A stretch of 64,000 bases of DNA, taken from an uncultured Pelagibacteraceae bacterium (GTDB lineage: Bacteria; Pseudomonadota; Alphaproteobacteria; Pelagibacterales; Pelagibacteraceae). Where the stretch lies: the NCBI GenBank assembly GCA_902524535.1, contig CABZDR010000001.1, forward strand, positions 1 through 64,000, in the 5' to 3' direction. The translations under genes and the position numbers were made by a program. The first letter of the stretch is position 1, and each line of letters opens with the position of its first letter. Under the pieces are notes generated by a model that saw only the letters and a list, made by a program, of their open reading frames with translations, searched no databases and had not been told where the DNA came from. Below, piece by piece: positions 12,047 through 47,945 of this stretch.

Positions 12047-12820
12047 TTATCTAGCTCTTGATCCAGCTCCAGAACTTACTGCAGCAGCCCATATTACTAG
12101 ACCGAATGCAATTTTGTTAATGAAGTCAGCTAAATTGTAAACGACGTTAAGCGAATTAGCATCTACACCACCTGTTAAGTAACCAAATACATAACCTAAT
12201 GGGTAAATTGCCCAACCTACAGTAACGATCATTCTCATTGCACCGAAAGCAGTTACAAGTGCTTTGTTACCACTTTTAGATGCAGCTTTTCCAGCTTCAC
12301 CTGAGAATATTTCATATAGAATGTATACCCAACCAGCCATACCGATTATGAAACCAAGTGTAGCGTTGATGTATCCAGCTTCTCCTAAATATCCACCGAT
12401 TAACATTACTAATGAACCAATTAACAATCTCCAGAAAATTCCAGAGTTTGCTTTTCTTACAGCTACTAGAATTAAATAGAATTCTATCATCTGTAATGGC
12501 ACAGTAATTAACCAGTCAATATATCTGTATACTGTTGGTGAATCACCTGTAGATACCCACACATCTCTCATGTACATGTAATGGATAAAAGCGATACCAG
12601 TTACAAGACCTGCTACTGTTACAGATGTTTTCCATGCTGGGTTAACTGTGCTTCTCTCCATAAAGAAAAAAGCTGTTGAAGCCAACATACCCATTGAAAT
12701 TATCCAAAAAGATATTCCAACGAAATCATCTTGAGCTAACATAGCGGTCGCAGCGTTTGCAACTGTTGTTACACCCATTAGGGCAACAACTGTAAGAGCA
12801 AACAATTTAAGTTTTTTCAT
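12047..12820 (-). CDS. proteorhodopsin, blue-tuned light-driven proton pump
   Basis: A 257-residue seven-helix retinal protein in the inner membrane. A signal peptide (cleaved near ANA-A) precedes the helices. Key residues: Schiff-base counter-ion D102 and proton donor E113 in RYIDWLITVPLQMIEFYLIL, H80 near the counter-ion, and the retinal lysine K236 in DFINKIAFG. Position 110, equivalent to the spectral-tuning residue 105, is Gln, which gives blue absorption in characterised proteins. A good SD (gagggag, 6 bases upstream) and base composition less AT-biased than the neighbours suggest high expression. A strong terminator follows the gene, then ferredoxin. Confidence 0.97.
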   Translation of the reverse strand: MKKLKLFALTVVALMGVTTVANAATAMLAQDDFVGISFWIISMGMLASTAFFFMERSTVNPAWKTSVTVAGLVTGIAFIHYMYMRDVWVSTGDSPTVYRYIDWLITVPLQMIEFYLILVAVRKANSGIFWRLLIGSLVMLIGGYLGEAGYINATLGFIIGMAGWVYILYEIFSGEAGKAASKSGNKALVTAFGAMRMIVTVGWAIYPLGYVFGYLTGGVDANSLNVVYNLADFINKIAFGLVIWAAAVSSGAGSRAR

Positions 12821-30519: not shown

Positions 30520-31440
30520 TTAAGCAATAGATTTTAGATTCTGCCTGTAAACTAATGAATGAGGAATATTTTTTTCATTTATTTCAAAAATAGAATAATT
30601 GTCTTTATTTTTAAAAACTTTTCTTAATAGATCGTTTGTCAATTTATGACCACCTTGAGAACATTTAATTTTTCCAATTACCTTATAACCCGATAAAAAT
30701 AAATCTCCCATACAATCAAGGATTTTATGATTAACAAATTCTTTTTTATTTCTTAATCCATCTTCGTTCAAGAGTTTTGAGTCTTTTACCACTAAAGCAT
30801 TCTCTAATGAACCTCCCTTAGCAAAACCCATAGATCTTAATTTTTCAATATCCTCATACAAACAAAAAGTTCTTGAACTAAATATGTCCTCTAGATCGTC
30901 CTCGTAAACTTTTAAAGTATTTCTTTGACTCCCGATTAGTTGATTTTTATATTTAATTTCAAAATCTATTTCTAAATTTATTTTACTTGGTTGAATAGAA
31001 ATCGATTTTGCACCCTCTTTAAAGTCAATTAATTTGTTTATTCTTATAACTTTTATGGGGATTTCACTAATTACTATACCTGCCTTTAATATTTCATCTA
31101 CAAATACTTTTGCAGATCCATCTAAAATCGGCACTTCTTCGTTATCAATTTCTATAACCGCATTGTCTATACCAATACCATAGAACGCTCCCATTAGATG
31201 TTCAATAGTGGAGACTTTAACATTAAATTCGTTTGATATTGTAGTGCATAACATTGCACTAGTTACATTGTTAACGTGTGGGTAAATAACATTATTTTTA
31301 TTTAGGTCTTTTCTAATAAATATAATACCTTCGTTTGGTAAAGCAGGTTTAATAGTAAGAGTTACAGACTTGCCTGAATGTAAACCAAAGCCTTTTAGTT
31401 TAATTGGCTTTTTTAAAGTTTTTTGTTTGTGAAAAGACAT
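30520..31440 (-). CDS. lpxC: UDP-3-O-acyl-N-acetylglucosamine deacetylase
   Basis: Zinc deacetylase committing UDP-acyl-GlcNAc to lipid A synthesis. The ATG at 31440 (306 residues, MSFHKQKTLKKPIKLKGFGLHSG) is preferred over an in-frame GTG at 31455. Visible are GLHSG near the start, the zinc ligand in IEHLMGAFYGIGIDN, NHKILDCMGDL with the other zinc His/Asp, and GGHKLTND with the general-acid His. It follows the ftsA-like gene after 65 bp (where ftsZ would normally lie) and precedes bamD. Its presence implies an LPS-containing outer membrane. Confidence 0.95.
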   Translation of the reverse strand: MSFHKQKTLKKPIKLKGFGLHSGKSVTLTIKPALPNEGIIFIRKDLNKNNVIYPHVNNVTSAMLCTTISNEFNVKVSTIEHLMGAFYGIGIDNAVIEIDNEEVPILDGSAKVFVDEILKAGIVISEIPIKVIRINKLIDFKEGAKSISIQPSKINLEIDFEIKYKNQLIGSQRNTLKVYEDDLEDIFSSRTFCLYEDIEKLRSMGFAKGGSLENALVVKDSKLLNEDGLRNKKEFVNHKILDCMGDLFLSGYKVIGKIKCSQGGHKLTNDLLRKVFKNKDNYSIFEINEKNIPHSLVYRQNLKSIA

Positions 31441-31505
31441 TTCAAGGATGTACACTTGTGAATGAAAAATCTGAACTCAAGAAATATTACAAATAAATAC
31501 TTGAA

Positions 31506-32210
31506 TTAATTAAAAAATTTAAAAAATCTCTCAAAAAAACCCTGTTTTTCTGATTTTTTTTTTATTATATGAACTTCATTTTCATCATTTTCGTATTTTA
31601 ATCTTGCAGCGGTGTAAGATACGTCTTCACCATCCTTTTTATAATATTTGCTCAAATAATCAGCTGCAAAAATTTGATCAATTCTGATTTGATATTTTTT
31701 AATCTTATTTGAATATTCTTTTTTTATATGATTTGGTAAACAAACAAAATCTATATCTAAACATAATTCGTCACATTCAAATTCATCCTCTAAAGTTGAT
31801 GATGTTTTTTTATTAAGCATAAAGTTATTAATCTTAATATATGTTATTGTCTTATCAGGATTATTTTCTTTAATTTGTTGTTTCAAATCAAAAAGAATGT
31901 GATTAAGGTCTGCTTTATTTATCTTATCTCCTCTTCCATCTTTTTTTATTGAGGCTTGAATAAGTAAAAAATTTGAGTCATCAATAATTAAATCAATTTC
32001 ATTTATAAATTTATGAATTTTTTTTTCAACTTTTAGAATATTCACACCCAAGAACTCATCATATAATTCATCCAATTCTTTTTTTTTAATATTTTCATTT
32101 ATCAAAATTTTTTTTTCAAAAATTTTATTTTTGATTCCATCAAATACGCATAGGGATAGCTTATCTACCTCTATAGAAAAAAAAGTCTTTAAATATAAAT
32201 TAGAGTTCAT
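31506..32210 (-). CDS. mini-FtsA: short FtsA-like protein lacking the ATP-binding 2A/2B half
   Basis: A 234-residue protein in the ftsA slot after ftsQ. By eye, residues 9-85 follow FtsA domain 1A (but the DxGTxK phosphate motif is IEVDKLS), 85-160 follow domain 1C (NKADLNHILFDLKQQI, TYIKINNFMLN, DIDFVCLPNH), and 165-190 follow the 1A helix before domain 2 (IRIDQIFAADYLSKYY). The sequence then jumps to the FtsA tail, TAARLKY (200-206), and a C-terminal amphipathic helix GFFERFFKFF like the FtsA membrane-targeting sequence. The DIGGGT and adenosine motifs are absent. Usual FtsA length is about 420. It overlaps ftsQ by 11 bp. Likely role: a nucleotide-free membrane tether for FtsZ (inference). 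Confidence 0.65.
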   Translation of the reverse strand: MNSNLYLKTFFSIEVDKLSLCVFDGIKNKIFEKKILINENIKKKELDELYDEFLGVNILKVEKKIHKFINEIDLIIDDSNFLLIQASIKKDGRGDKINKADLNHILFDLKQQIKENNPDKTITYIKINNFMLNKKTSSTLEDEFECDELCLDIDFVCLPNHIKKEYSNKIKKYQIRIDQIFAADYLSKYYKKDGEDVSYTAARLKYENDENEVHIIKKKSEKQGFFERFFKFFN

Positions 32211-32874
32211 TAACTATTATTTGTTTATTCACTCTCATATCAAAAATTTTTACATTATTAAAATATGGTAAATTTTTAATTTTATAAAAATCATTTAATT
32301 CTTTAATAGAGCTATTAATTGGTAATTTTATCAAAATGCCACTATTTAACTCTAGGTCCCATCTTTTTGATGGGAAAAAATATAATTTTTTAATTTCATT
32401 AAATTTAATTGAGGATTTTGATATATTTTCATTAATCAAAAAAAAATCCTCCAAGGAAGGGCTTCCTAAAACTAAAGGTAAATTTGGATAACTCAGTTCA
32501 GATTTAATCAATTTTTTATTAGACCCGATTAGAAAAATTTCATTTTGAATCTTTATAGTTGCTAAAAAAATTGTTTTTTTAATTACAATATTTATATCTG
32601 AGGGATAATTCTTATTAATCTTAAAGGTCTCAATCAAATTATTAGAGTTTAAAGCTGTAATTATTTCTTTTTTAGGTAAGAAAAAAATGTTTTTATTTTT
32701 AATTTGCTCAAGTCTTAATAGTAAATCTAATTTTTCTAACCCACTCAAACCGACTAATTTTAAATTCTTAATTATGAAAAATTTTGTATCAATAAAATAC
32801 TTATTATTAACTGATCCTAACAAAATGAGTAAAAATAAGTAAATTAGAATTTTTTTATCTTTCGATAGAAGCAT
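32200..32874 (-). CDS. ftsQ: cell-division protein FtsQ
   Basis: A 224-residue bitopic inner-membrane protein: short cytoplasmic tail, transmembrane helix (ILIYLFLLILLGSV), then a POTRA domain (FIIKNLKLVGLSGLEKLDLLLRLE) and the FtsQ/DivIB beta domain (SKRWDLELNSGILIKLP). It recruits the FtsBL subcomplex. Identity rests mostly on this architecture and its position between ddl (20-bp overlap) and the ftsA-like gene. It is somewhat shorter than E. coli FtsQ (276). Confidence 0.85.
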   Translation of the reverse strand: MLLSKDKKILIYLFLLILLGSVNNKYFIDTKFFIIKNLKLVGLSGLEKLDLLLRLEQIKNKNIFFLPKKEIITALNSNNLIETFKINKNYPSDINIVIKKTIFLATIKIQNEIFLIGSNKKLIKSELSYPNLPLVLGSPSLEDFFLINENISKSSIKFNEIKKLYFFPSKRWDLELNSGILIKLPINSSIKELNDFYKIKNLPYFNNVKIFDMRVNKQIIVNEL

Positions 32875-39544: not shown

Positions 39545-40629
39545 CACCTTAATTTCAATGTAGCCAAGCCAATTACAGCTAATATTATTGAAATAATCCA
39601 AAACCTGATTACTACTGTTGACTCTGGCCAACCTTTCTTCTCGAAATGGTGATGTACTGGAGCCATTTTGAATATTCTTCTTCCAGTTAGTTTAAATGAA
39701 ATTACTTGAACTAATACAGACAGAGCTTCAAGAACAAATAAGCCTCCGGTTATTGCTAATACAATTTCATGTTTAGTTATAATACTCATTGCTCCCAGCG
39801 AACCTCCTAAAGAAAGTGATCCTGTGTCACCCATGAAAATTTTTGCTGGAGGGGCGTTAAACCACAAAAAACCTAAACACGCACCTATTATAGCGGCACA
39901 AAAAATAGATATTTCACCCGTTCCCTCGATATATAATATTTGAAGATATTCTGAAAAAAAAATATTGCCCGTTACATAACTAATAAAAGCAAAACATCCT
40001 GCAACTAAAATAACTGGCACTGTTGCCAACCCATCTAAACCATCGGTTAAATTTACTGCATTAGAAGAACCTACAATTACAAAAATCGAAAATGGTATGA
40101 AAAACCAGCCAAGGTTTATAACCAAATTTTTAAAAAATGGGAAATATAAGTTTTTAAATTCCTCGTATTCTACAAAATACGTTAATACTACTAAACCTGT
40201 CAAAGCTAAAACAATTTGCATCATTATTTTAAACTTAGATGAAATTCCCTCTGAGCTAATATTTTTAATTTTTTTATAATCGTCATACGCGCCTAGAATT
40301 CCAAATGACACAACAATGTATAGACAAAATAGAATATAAACATTTTTTAAATCTGCCCAAAGTAACACGGAGACTATTAAACCAAGTAAAATTACGACCC
40401 CACCCATTGTTGGAGTTCCTATCTTTTTGATAATATGATCTGACGGACCATCATTTCTTATTGGATTAAAAATTTTTCTATTTGAAAATAACTTGATAAA
40501 AGGACCACCAATCAAAAGTGCTATTAAAAGTGATGTGAAAAAAGCTAATCCAGTTCTAAAAGTAATATACTTAAAAACATTTAAAAATGAAAAGCTCTCA
40601 ACATAGTTGAGTAATAATTCATATAACAT
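39544..40629 (-). CDS. mraY: phospho-MurNAc-pentapeptide transferase (lipid I synthase)
   Basis: A 361-residue polytopic membrane enzyme loading MurNAc-pentapeptide on undecaprenyl phosphate. Signatures are GPSDHIIKKIGTPTMGG, the double-Asp GAYDDYKK, NLTDGLDGLA, MGDTGSLSLGG and the cytoplasmic RRIFKMAPVHHHFEKKGWPE. It overlaps the murEF fusion by 11 bp upstream and murD by one base downstream. Confidence 0.97.
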   Translation of the reverse strand: MLYELLLNYVESFSFLNVFKYITFRTGLAFFTSLLIALLIGGPFIKLFSNRKIFNPIRNDGPSDHIIKKIGTPTMGGVVILLGLIVSVLLWADLKNVYILFCLYIVVSFGILGAYDDYKKIKNISSEGISSKFKIMMQIVLALTGLVVLTYFVEYEEFKNLYFPFFKNLVINLGWFFIPFSIFVIVGSSNAVNLTDGLDGLATVPVILVAGCFAFISYVTGNIFFSEYLQILYIEGTGEISIFCAAIIGACLGFLWFNAPPAKIFMGDTGSLSLGGSLGAMSIITKHEIVLAITGGLFVLEALSVLVQVISFKLTGRRIFKMAPVHHHFEKKGWPESTVVIRFWIISIILAVIGLATLKLR

Positions 40630-43471
40630 TTTGCCTTCTTTGTTTTAGATCAAAGATAAATTTATTTAAACCAGTGGAATTTGATCCTTTTACCATTAAA
40701 TAATCACCAGTTTTAAAATCATTTTTAATTATTTTAAGCATATCCAATTTGTTTGTTAATATTTTTGCTTTTTTGTTTGGATCTAAACCTTTATATGTCT
40801 CTTTAATATATTTTCCAATTACATAAACCTTATCGATTTTTGTTTTATTAATTATTTTACTAATTAATTTGTGTTGTTTGATAGAGTGCTTACCCAACTC
40901 TAGCATATCACCCAAAAACATATATTTTTTTGATCTTTTTGATTCTATTTTTTCAAAATTTTCAATTGAACTTTTAAGCGAAAGTGGATTTGAATTATAA
41001 GATTCATCTACCAAATAAATTTTTTTGTTTCCAAAATTAACATTAAATATATCACCTCTGCCTTTAGGTATATTAATATTAAAAAACACATCTTTTTTAA
41101 AATTTTCAATATTAGCAAATGTATATATAGAAGCTATAGCAGCTAGTATATTGTACAAATTATTTTTATAATTATTTTTAGCGTAGAAAGAAAATTTATT
41201 ATTGTTTATATTTATTAATAATTCATACTTATTTTTTATTTTTTTTACACTTAACAAATTAATTTCTGAAGACTTATTTTTGATTGCAAACGATATAACT
41301 TTTAATTTTTTCTTAAGCGCTAAGCCTTTTAGATAATGATAAAAATGATCGTCTCCATTTAAGACAATTATCCCATCTTTTTTAATATTATTCATTATCT
41401 CAGCTTTAGCATCCGCAATCTGTTTAATATTTTTAAAATTCTTTGAATGTGCGTAACTTATATTGGTAATAACTCCTAGATCAGGCTTAATTATTTTTGA
41501 CAAATTATTAATTTCACCCTTTTTATCCATTCCGATTTCAAATACACCAAAATCATCGCTTTGTTTCATATTAAACAAACTTAATGGCACACCATACTTA
41601 TTATTAAAAGACTTTGGTGAAAATGATGTTCTTGAAATATTTTTTAAAACTAAACCAATCATTTCTTTTAAAGTCGTCTTTCCACAGCTACCAGTTATTG
41701 AAATGATCTTTGCATCGATGTTTTCTCTTAAAATTGATGAACATGTAGTCAAAAATCTAAGGGTATTTTTGACTTTAATTTGTTTAAAAAGTGAATGATT
41801 TTTATTTAATCGATTTACAACTACAAAACTTGATTTTTTTTTAAAAGCTTCCGATACATATTCGTTACCATCTAAATTTTTTCCTTTTATGGCAAAAAAG
41901 ATATCATTTTTTTTGATTGATTTAGAGTTAATAGAAATATCTTTGATTAGTGTTTTATTTGGTAAATTAACTTTTGACTGTTCTTGGATTATGTTGAGTT
42001 TTATATTTTTTGATAAAAACTTGTTTTTTAGTCTAATTGACTCAAGAATTACTTTTTGATCAGAAAAAAAAGTTCTTTTTTTTCCATAATCTTGGGTCTT
42101 TTCGTGTCCTTTACCTGCTACCAGCAAAATATCTCCAGTCTTGAGATTTTTTACAGCTTCATGAATCGCTTTTTTTCGATCAGGTATTTCATAAATTTTT
42201 TTATTCTTAATCCCTTTTTTTATTTCATCTCTTATTTTAAGAGGTTTTTCATTCCTTGGGTTATCATCTGTTAAGTAAATTTCATTAGAGTATTTTGCTG
42301 CAATTTTTCCCATCAAGGGTCTTTTCTTTAAATCTCTATTACCTCCACATCCGAATATTAGATTGATTTTATTAAAGGGAAATTGCTCTTTAAGATTTGA
42401 TAAAGCTAATTCAAGCGCCGCAGGGGTATGTGCATAATCTAAAATTACTTTACTGTTATTATGTATTTTTCCAATTTTTTCTAATCTTCCTTCTACAGGT
42501 TTAATTTTTGGAAGTATCTTTAAAATTTTTTTAAATTTAATGCCACTTTTATAAGCAGCTATAATCGCCATTAATAAATTCTTTACTTGTATTTTTCCTA
42601 TTAGGTTTAAGTAAATTTTATACTTAATCTTTTTAAATTTAATTTCCAATATTTGTTTTTCTTTTTCAAATCTATGTGAAATCAATTTTATTCCGTTAAA
42701 TTCATTATGTATAAGACTTAAATTGATATCTTTTTTAATTGATATTTTTATAATTTTTTGTACCTCTGGAATATTTCCATCAGTTATTATATGCCCCCTC
42801 TTTTTGATCAAATGCTTAAATAAATATAATTTTGAATTTAAATAATTTTTCATATTTTTATGGTAATCTAAGTGGTCATGAGATAAGTTCGTGAATATAC
42901 CTATATCGAACTTTAATCCATCTAATCTATTTTGATCTAAACCATGACTAGATGCTTCCATAATTACAAATTCAATTTTTTTTCTTCTCAAGTCTTTAAG
43001 TATTGAACCAATTTGAATTGGATCTGATGTAGTATTTTTAAGATTTTTTGTTTTAGATTTATATTTAAGTCCAAGCGTTCCAATTGATGCAACTCTTTTT
43101 GAATTTAATTTTAAAATTTGTAAGTAAAAATCAGCGATTGATGATTTTCCATTGGTTCCAGTCACAGCAACCAATTTTTTAACTCTTTTATGATAAATTT
43201 TATAAGATACTTCTGCTAATAATTTTCTTGGATTTGAGGAATACAAAAAAATTACTTCAGGATTTTTTTTTTGATTTTTTTTTTCAGATACAATTACTTT
43301 GGCTCCTTTTTTAATAGCGTGTGATATAAAATTATTCCCATCAAATTTTTTTCCTTTAATTGCAAAAAAAATATCATTTTTTTTTACTCTTAAACTGTCA
43401 AATGCGATACCAGAAAAATTTATTTGGTAAAATCGCCTAGGAAGTTTTGGAATATAATCTTTAAGAAGCAT
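40619..43471 (-). CDS. murE/murF: MurE-MurF fusion: meso-DAP-adding and D-Ala-D-Ala-adding ligases in one polypeptide
   Basis: A single 950-residue reading frame holds two complete Mur ligases. Residues 1-480 are MurE: P-loop VTGTNGKSS (103-111), STxxEASSHGLDQ-type centre, LSHDHLDYH, DYAHTPAAL, and TDDNPRNE with DNPR at 403-406, the signature for meso-diaminopimelate. A short linker (about 480-505) leads to MurF with P-loop SITGSCGKTT (591-600), GVFEIGMDKKGEI, ITNISYAHS, DESYNSNPLS and LGDMLELG. There is no internal stop or frameshift, so the fusion is real in this sequence. The enzymes catalyse consecutive steps. It overlaps mraY by 11 bp. Confidence 0.96.
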   Translation of the reverse strand: MLLKDYIPKLPRRFYQINFSGIAFDSLRVKKNDIFFAIKGKKFDGNNFISHAIKKGAKVIVSEKKNQKKNPEVIFLYSSNPRKLLAEVSYKIYHKRVKKLVAVTGTNGKSSIADFYLQILKLNSKRVASIGTLGLKYKSKTKNLKNTTSDPIQIGSILKDLRRKKIEFVIMEASSHGLDQNRLDGLKFDIGIFTNLSHDHLDYHKNMKNYLNSKLYLFKHLIKKRGHIITDGNIPEVQKIIKISIKKDINLSLIHNEFNGIKLISHRFEKEKQILEIKFKKIKYKIYLNLIGKIQVKNLLMAIIAAYKSGIKFKKILKILPKIKPVEGRLEKIGKIHNNSKVILDYAHTPAALELALSNLKEQFPFNKINLIFGCGGNRDLKKRPLMGKIAAKYSNEIYLTDDNPRNEKPLKIRDEIKKGIKNKKIYEIPDRKKAIHEAVKNLKTGDILLVAGKGHEKTQDYGKKRTFFSDQKVILESIRLKNKFLSKNIKLNIIQEQSKVNLPNKTLIKDISINSKSIKKNDIFFAIKGKNLDGNEYVSEAFKKKSSFVVVNRLNKNHSLFKQIKVKNTLRFLTTCSSILRENIDAKIISITGSCGKTTLKEMIGLVLKNISRTSFSPKSFNNKYGVPLSLFNMKQSDDFGVFEIGMDKKGEINNLSKIIKPDLGVITNISYAHSKNFKNIKQIADAKAEIMNNIKKDGIIVLNGDDHFYHYLKGLALKKKLKVISFAIKNKSSEINLLSVKKIKNKYELLININNNKFSFYAKNNYKNNLYNILAAIASIYTFANIENFKKDVFFNINIPKGRGDIFNVNFGNKKIYLVDESYNSNPLSLKSSIENFEKIESKRSKKYMFLGDMLELGKHSIKQHKLISKIINKTKIDKVYVIGKYIKETYKGLDPNKKAKILTNKLDMLKIIKNDFKTGDYLMVKGSNSTGLNKFIFDLKQRRQNVI

Positions 43472-46478: not shown

Positions 46479-47945
46479 TTAATTTTTTTGTCTTCTTAAA
46501 AATGCTGGTATTTCAAGATCGTCATCTTGATCTTCTTCTCTAGACCCTAGCAAATTTTCTGGCGATGTATCTTTATCTTCTGAACTAAAAAGATCAGGTC
46601 CCTCAGCTTCAACTCCAAATTCTCTAAGATCATTTGTTGAATTATGATCCATTTCAGATGTTTCTAAAGCTTCTTGAGAAAAAGATTTTTCACCTTCATT
46701 TGAAACATTTTCAATTATGCTTTTAGCTTCCTGATTTTTTAATAACTCCTCATTATATTGATTATTTAAATCATCAATTGACTCACTTGACTCATTAAAG
46801 TTTTCAGTGGTGACTTCATTCTCAAGTTTAAGAGCGTTGGCACCATGAGATACGGGTGTTTGATTATTGCTTGAAAAATTAAAAGAGGTAGTTGTGCCTA
46901 AATTAGAAAAATCAGAGTAACCTGGATTTCTATTTTGAATACGATGTACCATATTAATTACAGATTTTGTTTCAGGTTGTTGTCCATCTAATGAAGTAGC
47001 TACGATTGAAACTCTTATCTTACCCTCTAATGTAGGATCAGTTATTGCTCCAATTATTACCTCTGCATCAGCTTCAACTTCTGATCTTATTTTGTTAACT
47101 ACTTCATCGACTTCAAATAATTTAAGATCTTTACCACCAGTAATATTAACTAATAAGCCTTTAGCACCTTTTAAAGTATAATCATCAATTAATGGATTAC
47201 TTATAGCCATCTCTGTAGCTTGCATTGCTCTACCATCACCTTCTGCCTCTCCTGTTCCCATCATCGCTTTACCCATAGATGCCATTACAGTTTCAACATC
47301 AGCAAAATCAAGATTAATTATTCCTGGTCTTACCATTAGATCTGTAACACTTTGAACTCCATGCATTAGAACATTATTTGATAAATTGAAAGACTCCTCA
47401 AAAGTAGTTTGTTCATTTGCAATTTTAAATAGATTTTGATTTGGGATTACTATAATCGTATCAACATGTTTTCTAAGTTCTTCAAGACCAATCTGGGCTC
47501 TTCTCATTCTAGATGGGCCTTCATATAAAAAAGGAAGCGTTACAACACCAACAGTTAATATATTTAACTCTTTAGCTGCTCTTGCTATAACATGAGCTGC
47601 ACCAGTACCAGTGCCACCACCCATTCCAGCAGCGATAAAAACCATATTTGCACCCTGTAAAATATTTATAATTTCATTTAAAGACTCATCTGCAGCAGCT
47701 TGACCAATATCAATTTTAGCACCTGCTCCTAAACCTTTAGTTAAATTCAGTCCAATTTGTACTTTTGACTTAGCTTTACTGTGTTTTAAATCTTGCGCAT
47801 CAGTATTTACTGCAATAAATTCAACACCCTGCATTCCATTATCTATCATTTCATTTATGGCATTACCTCCAGCGCCACCTACTCCCATAACCAAAAGACG
47901 TGGCTGTAATTCTCTTATTTCTGGTGTTTTAAAGTTAATCGTCAT
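46479..47945 (-). CDS. ftsZ: FtsZ tubulin-like division GTPase
   Basis: A 488-residue protein. The GTPase domain shows VMGVGGAGGNAINEM, VNTDAQDL, the tubulin signature GGGTGTG (109-115), LPFLYEGPSR and the T7 loop region NLDFADVETVM. It continues with a long acidic disordered linker (about residues 340-470) and the conserved C-terminal peptide DLEIPAFLRRQ, the docking site for FtsA and other partners. It is placed between mraZ (25-bp gap) and rsmH, not in its usual place behind ftsA. Confidence 0.97.
   Translation of the reverse strand: MTINFKTPEIRELQPRLLVMGVGGAGGNAINEMIDNGMQGVEFIAVNTDAQDLKHSKAKSKVQIGLNLTKGLGAGAKIDIGQAAADESLNEIINILQGANMVFIAAGMGGGTGTGAAHVIARAAKELNILTVGVVTLPFLYEGPSRMRRAQIGLEELRKHVDTIIVIPNQNLFKIANEQTTFEESFNLSNNVLMHGVQSVTDLMVRPGIINLDFADVETVMASMGKAMMGTGEAEGDGRAMQATEMAISNPLIDDYTLKGAKGLLVNITGGKDLKLFEVDEVVNKIRSEVEADAEVIIGAITDPTLEGKIRVSIVATSLDGQQPETKSVINMVHRIQNRNPGYSDFSNLGTTTSFNFSSNNQTPVSHGANALKLENEVTTENFNESSESIDDLNNQYNEELLKNQEAKSIIENVSNEGEKSFSQEALETSEMDHNSTNDLREFGVEAEGPDLFSSEDKDTSPENLLGSREEDQDDDLEIPAFLRRQKN

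Follow-up and report, generated by a model that had tools for sequence, protein, structure and literature searches.

A half-length FtsA, apparently without the 2A/2B module, in the division gene cluster of SAR11 bacteria

Background

FtsA is treated as a single actin-like machine in which ATP, filament and FtsZ docking belong together. Its longitudinal contacts run between subdomains IIA and IIB and its lateral contacts between IC domains, while FtsN binds in the IA-IC cleft (excerpt of PMC7613929). The FtsZ peptide binds FtsA subdomain 2B (excerpt of PMC5256927), deletion of 2B abolishes the interaction with FtsZ, and 1C recruits FtsQ and FtsN (excerpt of PMC4281207). In E. coli, constriction is thought to start when FtsA goes over from polymers to monomers, the state in which it recruits the downstream proteins (excerpt of PMC9098913). 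S. pneumoniae FtsA must bind ATP to attach to the membrane, and the changes that inactivate E. coli FtsA lie mostly at the ATP site (both from an excerpt of PMC5832921). In Caulobacter, FtsA arrives late, other FtsZ-binding proteins arrive earlier, and there is no ZipA (excerpt of PMC8429850).

The window analyzed here, a whole stretch of 64,000 nucleotides, belongs to a SAR11 genome of 1.11 Mb (7 contigs, 88% complete), and SAR11 bacteria are among the commonest cells in the sea. Its ftsA slot holds a gene that was originally predicted, from the sequence, to encode a mini-FtsA (Table 1). Among the open-licence papers that we searched, we found no description of a SAR11 half-FtsA.

Results

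The ftsA slot and its surroundings

The original prediction was correct in its coordinates and in placing the gene in the ftsA slot between ftsQ and lpxC; the first 11 bases of mini-ftsA are also the last 11 of ftsQ (32200-32210). The same slot is recognizable elsewhere, in that ftsA immediately precedes lpxC both in the window and in all 60 named loci with a complete ftsA. ftsQ stands beside ftsA in 55 of the 60 loci, and four of the remaining five have little upstream DNA. For neighbours in the window outside the family searches, the gene names used here are presumed. The ftsZ gene sits at the far end of the dcw cluster between mraZ-like and rsmH-like genes (names given by eye). It is not adjacent to ftsA but about 14 kb away, a distance that is also about 14 kb in three relatives (G012, G022 and G033). 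Elsewhere in the window, the 950-residue protein with duplicated Mur ligase stretches is, judged by its position and ends, probably a MurE-MurF fusion.

Table 1. Coordinates of mini-ftsA, its predicted parts and other genes of the window
Feature	Position	Strand	Basis
mini-ftsA, 234 aa	31506..32210	-	ORF; orthologues; AlphaFold2 model and PDB matches; ftsQ and lpxC on either side
Domain 1A, first part (residues 1-80)	31971..32210	-	Model elements 7-76; approximate boundaries
Domain 1C / SHS2 (residues 81-160)	31731..31970	-	Model; SHS2_FTSA in orthologues; approximate boundaries
Domain 1A, middle part (residues 161-190)	31641..31730	-	Model helix 160-171, strand 176-182, helix 183-189
Junction where the whole 2A/2B module is absent (residues 191-196)	31623..31640	-	Alignments with long forms
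Last 1A helix, kept past the gap (residues 197-210)	31581..31622	-	Model helix 197-206; short and long tails compared
C-terminal amphipathic helix, presumed membrane-targeting (residues 224-234)	31509..31541	-	Model helix 225-233, low pLDDT; helical moment
ftsQ	32200..32874	-	Pfam FtsQ_DivIB_C 21 bits (cut-off 21); POTRA_1 22.3 (just below its cut-off of 23)
lpxC, downstream of mini-ftsA	30520..31455	-	Named from sequence by eye
ftsZ with conserved LEIPAFLRRQKN tail	46479..47945	-	Pfam Tubulin and FtsZ_C; tails compared
950-residue protein, two Mur ligase middle and two C-terminal stretches	40619..43471	-	Pfam
Bacteriorhodopsin-like protein, presumably proteorhodopsin	12047..12820	-	

Family and fold of the short protein

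Family profiles recognize the orthologues of the window's protein as FtsA. At E<=1, the Pfam profile of domain 1C, SHS2_FTSA, picks up 13 of 36 short forms, with 4.7e-7 as the best value (the window's protein is not among the 13), and the NCBIfam FtsA model TIGR01174 matches the short forms L108 (6.5e-13), L115 (1.3e-6) and L116 (0.0036). The TIGR01174 cut-off of 175.85 bits is missed by the three short and the three long SAR11 forms given, and the window's protein has no match to this model. A profile built from the 36 short forms and compared with PDB sequences brings up only FtsA below E 0.1 (best 0.002, positions 46-189).

The AlphaFold2 model of the window's protein (pLDDT 84.4, pTM 0.77, from a 61-row alignment) shows the elements of 1A and 1C, the last 1A helix and a C-terminal helix, with confidence below 60 across about the last 24 residues. 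In a Foldseek comparison with the PDB, the first 19 rows are solved FtsAs (best E 3.1e-12). With VIA-align, residues 4-206 of the model align onto 6-392 of T. maritima FtsA 1e4g (Z 13.8, rmsd 3.2, 195 residues aligned), so that both ends of the 380-residue target are reached and about half of it is covered. The corresponding values for 3wt0_A are Z 15.8, rmsd 4.0 and 201 residues, and the best non-FtsA rows have Z 11.1 over 119 residues and, for PilM, Z 11.0 over 175. For the long form L111, the model is that of a complete FtsA (pLDDT 85.3; Foldseek to 1e4g, E 5.4e-21). The model, the PDB matches and the 13 SHS2_FTSA matches all describe a 1A fold with an inserted 1C/SHS2 domain, and the comparison with FtsA structures takes in 1A and 1C and skips 2A/2B. 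Together with the ends shared with long forms, these results bear out the FtsA identity first proposed for the 234-residue protein.

The missing module and the retained ends

When aligned with L111 (378 aa), the short protein has a gap from residue ~195 to 338 that takes out all of 2A-2B-2A; beyond the gap, the last 1A helix is present again. The 2A/2B columns are empty in 36 of 36 short forms, and PF14450, which covers the 2A/2B region, matches none of these 36 at E<=1 as against all 25 of 25 long forms. The model, VIA-align and the alignments with long forms agree with the clean internal loss that had been read from the sequence, and the model and helical moment agree with the retention of 1A, 1C and an amphipathic C-terminal helix. 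The size of the loss had been put at about 180 residues, a figure that fits only FtsAs of ~420 residues; against L111 it is ~145. The description "actin-fold-less" was overstated as well, since 1C is predicted to be intact and so is half of the actin fold, namely 1A.

The C-terminal helix of the window's protein has a helical moment of 0.68 (shuffle fraction 0.048). The mean moment of the C-terminal 11 residues is 0.55 in 46 short forms and 0.59 in 32 long forms, and the shuffle fraction falls below 0.05 in 35 of the 46 and 19 of the 32. As a sequence pattern, the amphipathic C-terminal helix is thus found in short and long forms.

Nucleotide-site and FtsZ-contact residues

The phosphate-1 residues D11 and G13, each present in 25 of 25 long forms, occur in 0 and 3 of 36 short forms, respectively, while E62 (25/25 long, 36/36 short) and H124 (25/25 long, 32/36 short) are kept. 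Constraint therefore appears to have gone from the 1A face of the nucleotide site, but not from other 1A/1C residues. In the 36 short forms, the phosphate-2 and adenosine-motif columns are empty and phosphate-1 is eroded, in keeping with the diverged and missing nucleotide motifs of the original prediction. With the phosphate-1 D and G replaced, short-form FtsA is very likely nucleotide-free. R281 and E284 of L111 are conserved throughout the 25 long forms and missing from all 36 short ones; in the HMMER alignment they align with R301 and E304 of T. maritima FtsA, which we take to contact the FtsZ tail.

The canonical second phosphate motif is DIGGGT. SAR11 long forms (L111, L107 and others) have DIG followed by varied residues, and this loss of GGT suggests that their ATP use may be weakened too.

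Distribution among SAR11 and other alphaproteobacteria

Alignment of orthologues showed that the short form recurs much more widely than in one genome. Sixty named SAR11 loci have a complete ftsA, 35 of them short (223-244 aa) and 25 long (368-399 aa), a ratio that is not a frequency because the LpxC search alignment came from short-form genomes only and the loci are the best 80 of 354 LpxC relatives. The other 20 of these 80 have no complete ftsA (contig ends), and all 80 records are titled Pelagibacteraceae, Candidatus Pelagibacter or Pelagibacterales. The window's protein is matched in 31 of 81 genomes, its own included, all within one genus. A further orthologue match table takes in at least 278 of 399 genomes. 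A set of 29 genomes, picked for completeness and ftsA form, comprises 20 with the short form and 9 with the long form, two of the latter from another family of the order. The four one-contig genomes of the genus in this set (G012, G114, G330 and G417) all have the short form, and strain HTCC9565 (L107) has the long form. In G012 (L012 / L226), one of the four, the short frame is interrupted, by either a real loss or a sequencing error.

In a wider survey, SHS2_FTSA matched 346 of 385 alphaproteobacterial genomes and, among the matches listed, only one frame is shorter than 300 residues and lies near a contig start; the survey is blind to forms as diverged as the window's, for which no match was obtained, and G000, G330 and G726 of the genus gave no match. 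The 39 of 385 genomes with no SHS2_FTSA match, such as G447 and G579, include two of ~600 kb and three of the SAR11 genus. SHS2_FTSA-negative alphaproteobacteria may be devoid of FtsA, or their FtsA may be short or diverged.

History of the loss

The outgroup family has the long form, thus making loss the likely direction of change. A quick LG+G4 tree of seven neighbouring genes at 73 loci (46 short, 27 long) needs at least four changes between short and long forms, and it rejects both a single mini clade (p 1.8e-5) and a single clade of the genus's long forms (p 1.2e-4); the tree carries long-branch warnings for L165, L195, L196 and L199. L181 was left out for having too few genes, L185 (the broken frame of G012) was labelled mini by hand, and L193 and L194 were dropped as duplicates of L106 and L111 on gene lengths and tails. 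In a tree of FtsA 1A/1C (78 sequences, LG+F+G4, fast search), two changes suffice and a single mini clade is not rejected (p 0.43). In the same tree, a grouping of the group 2 short forms (L108, L109, L112 and L132) with L111, their sister in the neighbour-gene tree, is not rejected (p 0.12), a grouping with L111 and L145 is (p 0.038), and the FtsA columns reject the deep order of the neighbour-gene tree (p 0.009). Compared pairwise, the group 2 short forms give a mean of 38% (best 44%) with group A long forms and a mean of 26% (best 33%) with the window's clade. The junction is of nearly equal length in all short groups. Given the conflict between the trees and the near-uniform junction, exchange of alleles or shared fast evolution looks the same as repeated loss. 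It is possible that 2A/2B was lost repeatedly, that alleles were exchanged, or both, with four losses called for by the neighbouring genes and a single one possible by FtsA.

Discussion

A probable recruiter half of FtsA

Our best explanation, to which we give somewhat better than even credence as a whole, is that the window gene is a true FtsA orthologue reduced to its membrane-bound recruiter half, and that the product serves later division proteins as a membrane adaptor that never polymerises, FtsZ being held on another anchor or at a new site. Such a protein would bind no nucleotide and make no actin-like longitudinal filament; because the longitudinal IIA-IIB contact is absent, it would sit at the membrane as a monomer, or paired via 1C. 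It would behave like an FtsA fixed in the unpolymerised state, and it may be locked in the monomeric, recruiting state. Through the 1A-1C cleft, it would pass the division site to FtsQ and the septal wall-synthesis proteins. FtsZ would then be anchored mainly by another protein, or through an unmapped site, given that the known site for its tail, in 2B, is absent. The late arrival of FtsA in Caulobacter suggests that early tethering in an alphaproteobacterium may do without FtsA. That short and long forms have the slot and the C-terminal helix in common speaks for a true orthologue. On the other side, the ATP dependence of S. pneumoniae and E. coli FtsA counts against a nucleotide-free adaptor, no FtsN was found for the cleft and no replacement FtsZ anchor was found among those searched, and the conserved FtsZ tail would also fit a mini-FtsA that still binds it.

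A possible tether for FtsZ

This last point leads to a different reading, in which mini-FtsA is a minimal tether that anchors FtsZ via a new tail-binding surface on 1A/1C, again with no nucleotide or filament. We consider it possible, though rather doubtful. It is close to the original interpretation, in which FtsA identity and the loss of 2A/2B and of nucleotide residues have stood up well, while the link to the Z ring is weakened by the missing 2B site. The LEIPAFLRRQ tail first noted on the window's FtsZ is indeed there, and EIPAFLRRQK is found in 28 of 28 FtsZs examined from the genus (13 from genomes labelled short-form, G021 on the basis of an ftsA fragment, 10 from long-form genomes and 5 unassigned), being equally conserved whether FtsA is short or long; the two FtsZs of the order's other family have EIPSFLRRQ. 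The FtsZ tail is therefore kept without its textbook ligand site, and no substitute was found in the 29 genomes among ZipA (Pfam ZipA_C), SepF (Pfam) and FtsE (TIGR02673), all with 0 of 29 over cut-off. SepF gave six weak matches of 13.5-13.8 bits, and 29 of 29 genomes gave many TIGR02673 matches below cut-off, which we infer to be other ABC-type transporters. Retention of the membrane helix would also suit a tether. Set against this, the known FtsZ-tail site lies in the lost 2B, deletion of which abolishes the interaction (excerpts of PMC5256927 and PMC4281207), and the FtsZ tail may be conserved for other ligands.

In Caulobacter, the FtsZ-binding proteins include FzlC and FzlA. Besides ZipA, SepF and FtsE, the searches of the 29 genomes covered ZapA, found in 26 of them, and SPOR. 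A SPOR match was obtained in 22 genomes (14 over cut-off); these matches, often weak, occur in 19 of 20 short-form genomes as against 1 of 7 long-form genomes of the genus, a skew that may follow descent only. The starts of 12 SPOR proteins that we inspected resemble an export signal, so these proteins are not obvious FtsNs, and SPOR was dropped as an FtsN marker. By eye the SPOR protein is RlpA-like, with Pfam giving SPOR only. No FtsN to fill the cleft was found via the SPOR search in the 29 genomes.

Weaker alternatives

It is very improbable that the short gene is a decaying remnant heading for loss in cells where FtsA function is no longer needed. The interrupted frame of the one-contig genome G012 points that way, as do the long branches of the fast-evolving short forms in the FtsA tree. 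But dN/dS of the short ftsA is 0.14-0.34 (nine pairs, two sharing L115; NG86, dS > 1 in some), similar to ftsQ and to the 0.15-0.26 of the long ftsA (six pairs; NG86, dS > 1 in some). Moreover, the 78-sequence FtsA-tree set includes 46 intact short frames, and invariant residues are present across 36 short forms. On dN/dS and intact frames we reject decay; these values indicate that purifying selection acts on the short gene in many SAR11 genomes.

A split FtsA, in which another gene supplies the 2A/2B half in trans, would account for the conserved FtsZ tail, but we regard it as more improbable still and reject it. In the window's genome, at 88% completeness, PF14450 has a single match at E<=10, to MreB with an mreC-like gene after it, the four one-contig genomes yield one FtsA-profile match apiece, and the 1A face of the nucleotide site is eroded too. 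A second full-length ftsA, for which the original prediction had proposed a genome search, is rejected likewise, as profile searches found none in the window's genome, at its 88% completeness, or in the four one-contig genomes. In G383, one extra weak match covers 37 residues of a 70-residue frame (E 0.003).

Finally, the window's protein by itself has no meaningful Pfam or NCBIfam match, as would fit a membrane-associated protein that occupies the ftsA slot without being related to FtsA, but the family matches of its orthologues (TIGR01174 among them), its Foldseek and VIA-align fold matches and the ends that it has in common with long forms leave that idea almost no probability.

Conclusions

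We see an even chance that division in much of SAR11 relies on a half-FtsA without ATP, filament or FtsZ-tail domain, FtsZ being anchored otherwise, and that this state came about by repeated loss or by spread of the short allele from one SAR11 lineage to another. If so, the recruiting function of FtsA is separable from tethering and polymerising. The short form is FtsA by descent and slot, without two of the features that define how FtsA is supposed to work, and it offers a natural test of which half of FtsA does the essential work. It also points to another way of holding FtsZ at the membrane. As many SAR11 bacteria are without the ATP- and FtsZ-holding part of FtsA, attachment of the ring to the membrane becomes a testable question, and paired comparisons are possible because related SAR11 genomes keep the long form.

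Among known proteins, the SAR11 long-form FtsA (L111; L107 of HTCC9565) has in common with the short form the slot before lpxC, the 1A/1C arrangement and an FFEK-type C-terminal helix, but differs in that 2A/2B is present, together with R281/E284 and with D and G in phosphate-1. Canonical FtsA (T. maritima 1e4f/1e4g/4a2a, E. coli 7q6d, V. maritimus 7q6f/7q6i) shares the predicted 1A and 1C, but its ATP half, the contact that builds longitudinal filaments and the domain for the FtsZ tail are absent from the short form. PilM and the cytoplasmic domain of GspL/EpsL, which come in the next Foldseek rows after FtsA, are adaptors of membrane machines with related folds, and PilM has an IC subdomain (excerpt of PMC7613929); they differ in serving other machines and scoring below FtsA, and several PilM entries are nucleotide-bound. 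The laboratory deletion of FtsA 2B likewise loses the FtsZ-binding domain, but it causes filamentation (excerpt of PMC4281207), whereas the SAR11 short form is a natural, conserved gene product in which 2A is absent too.
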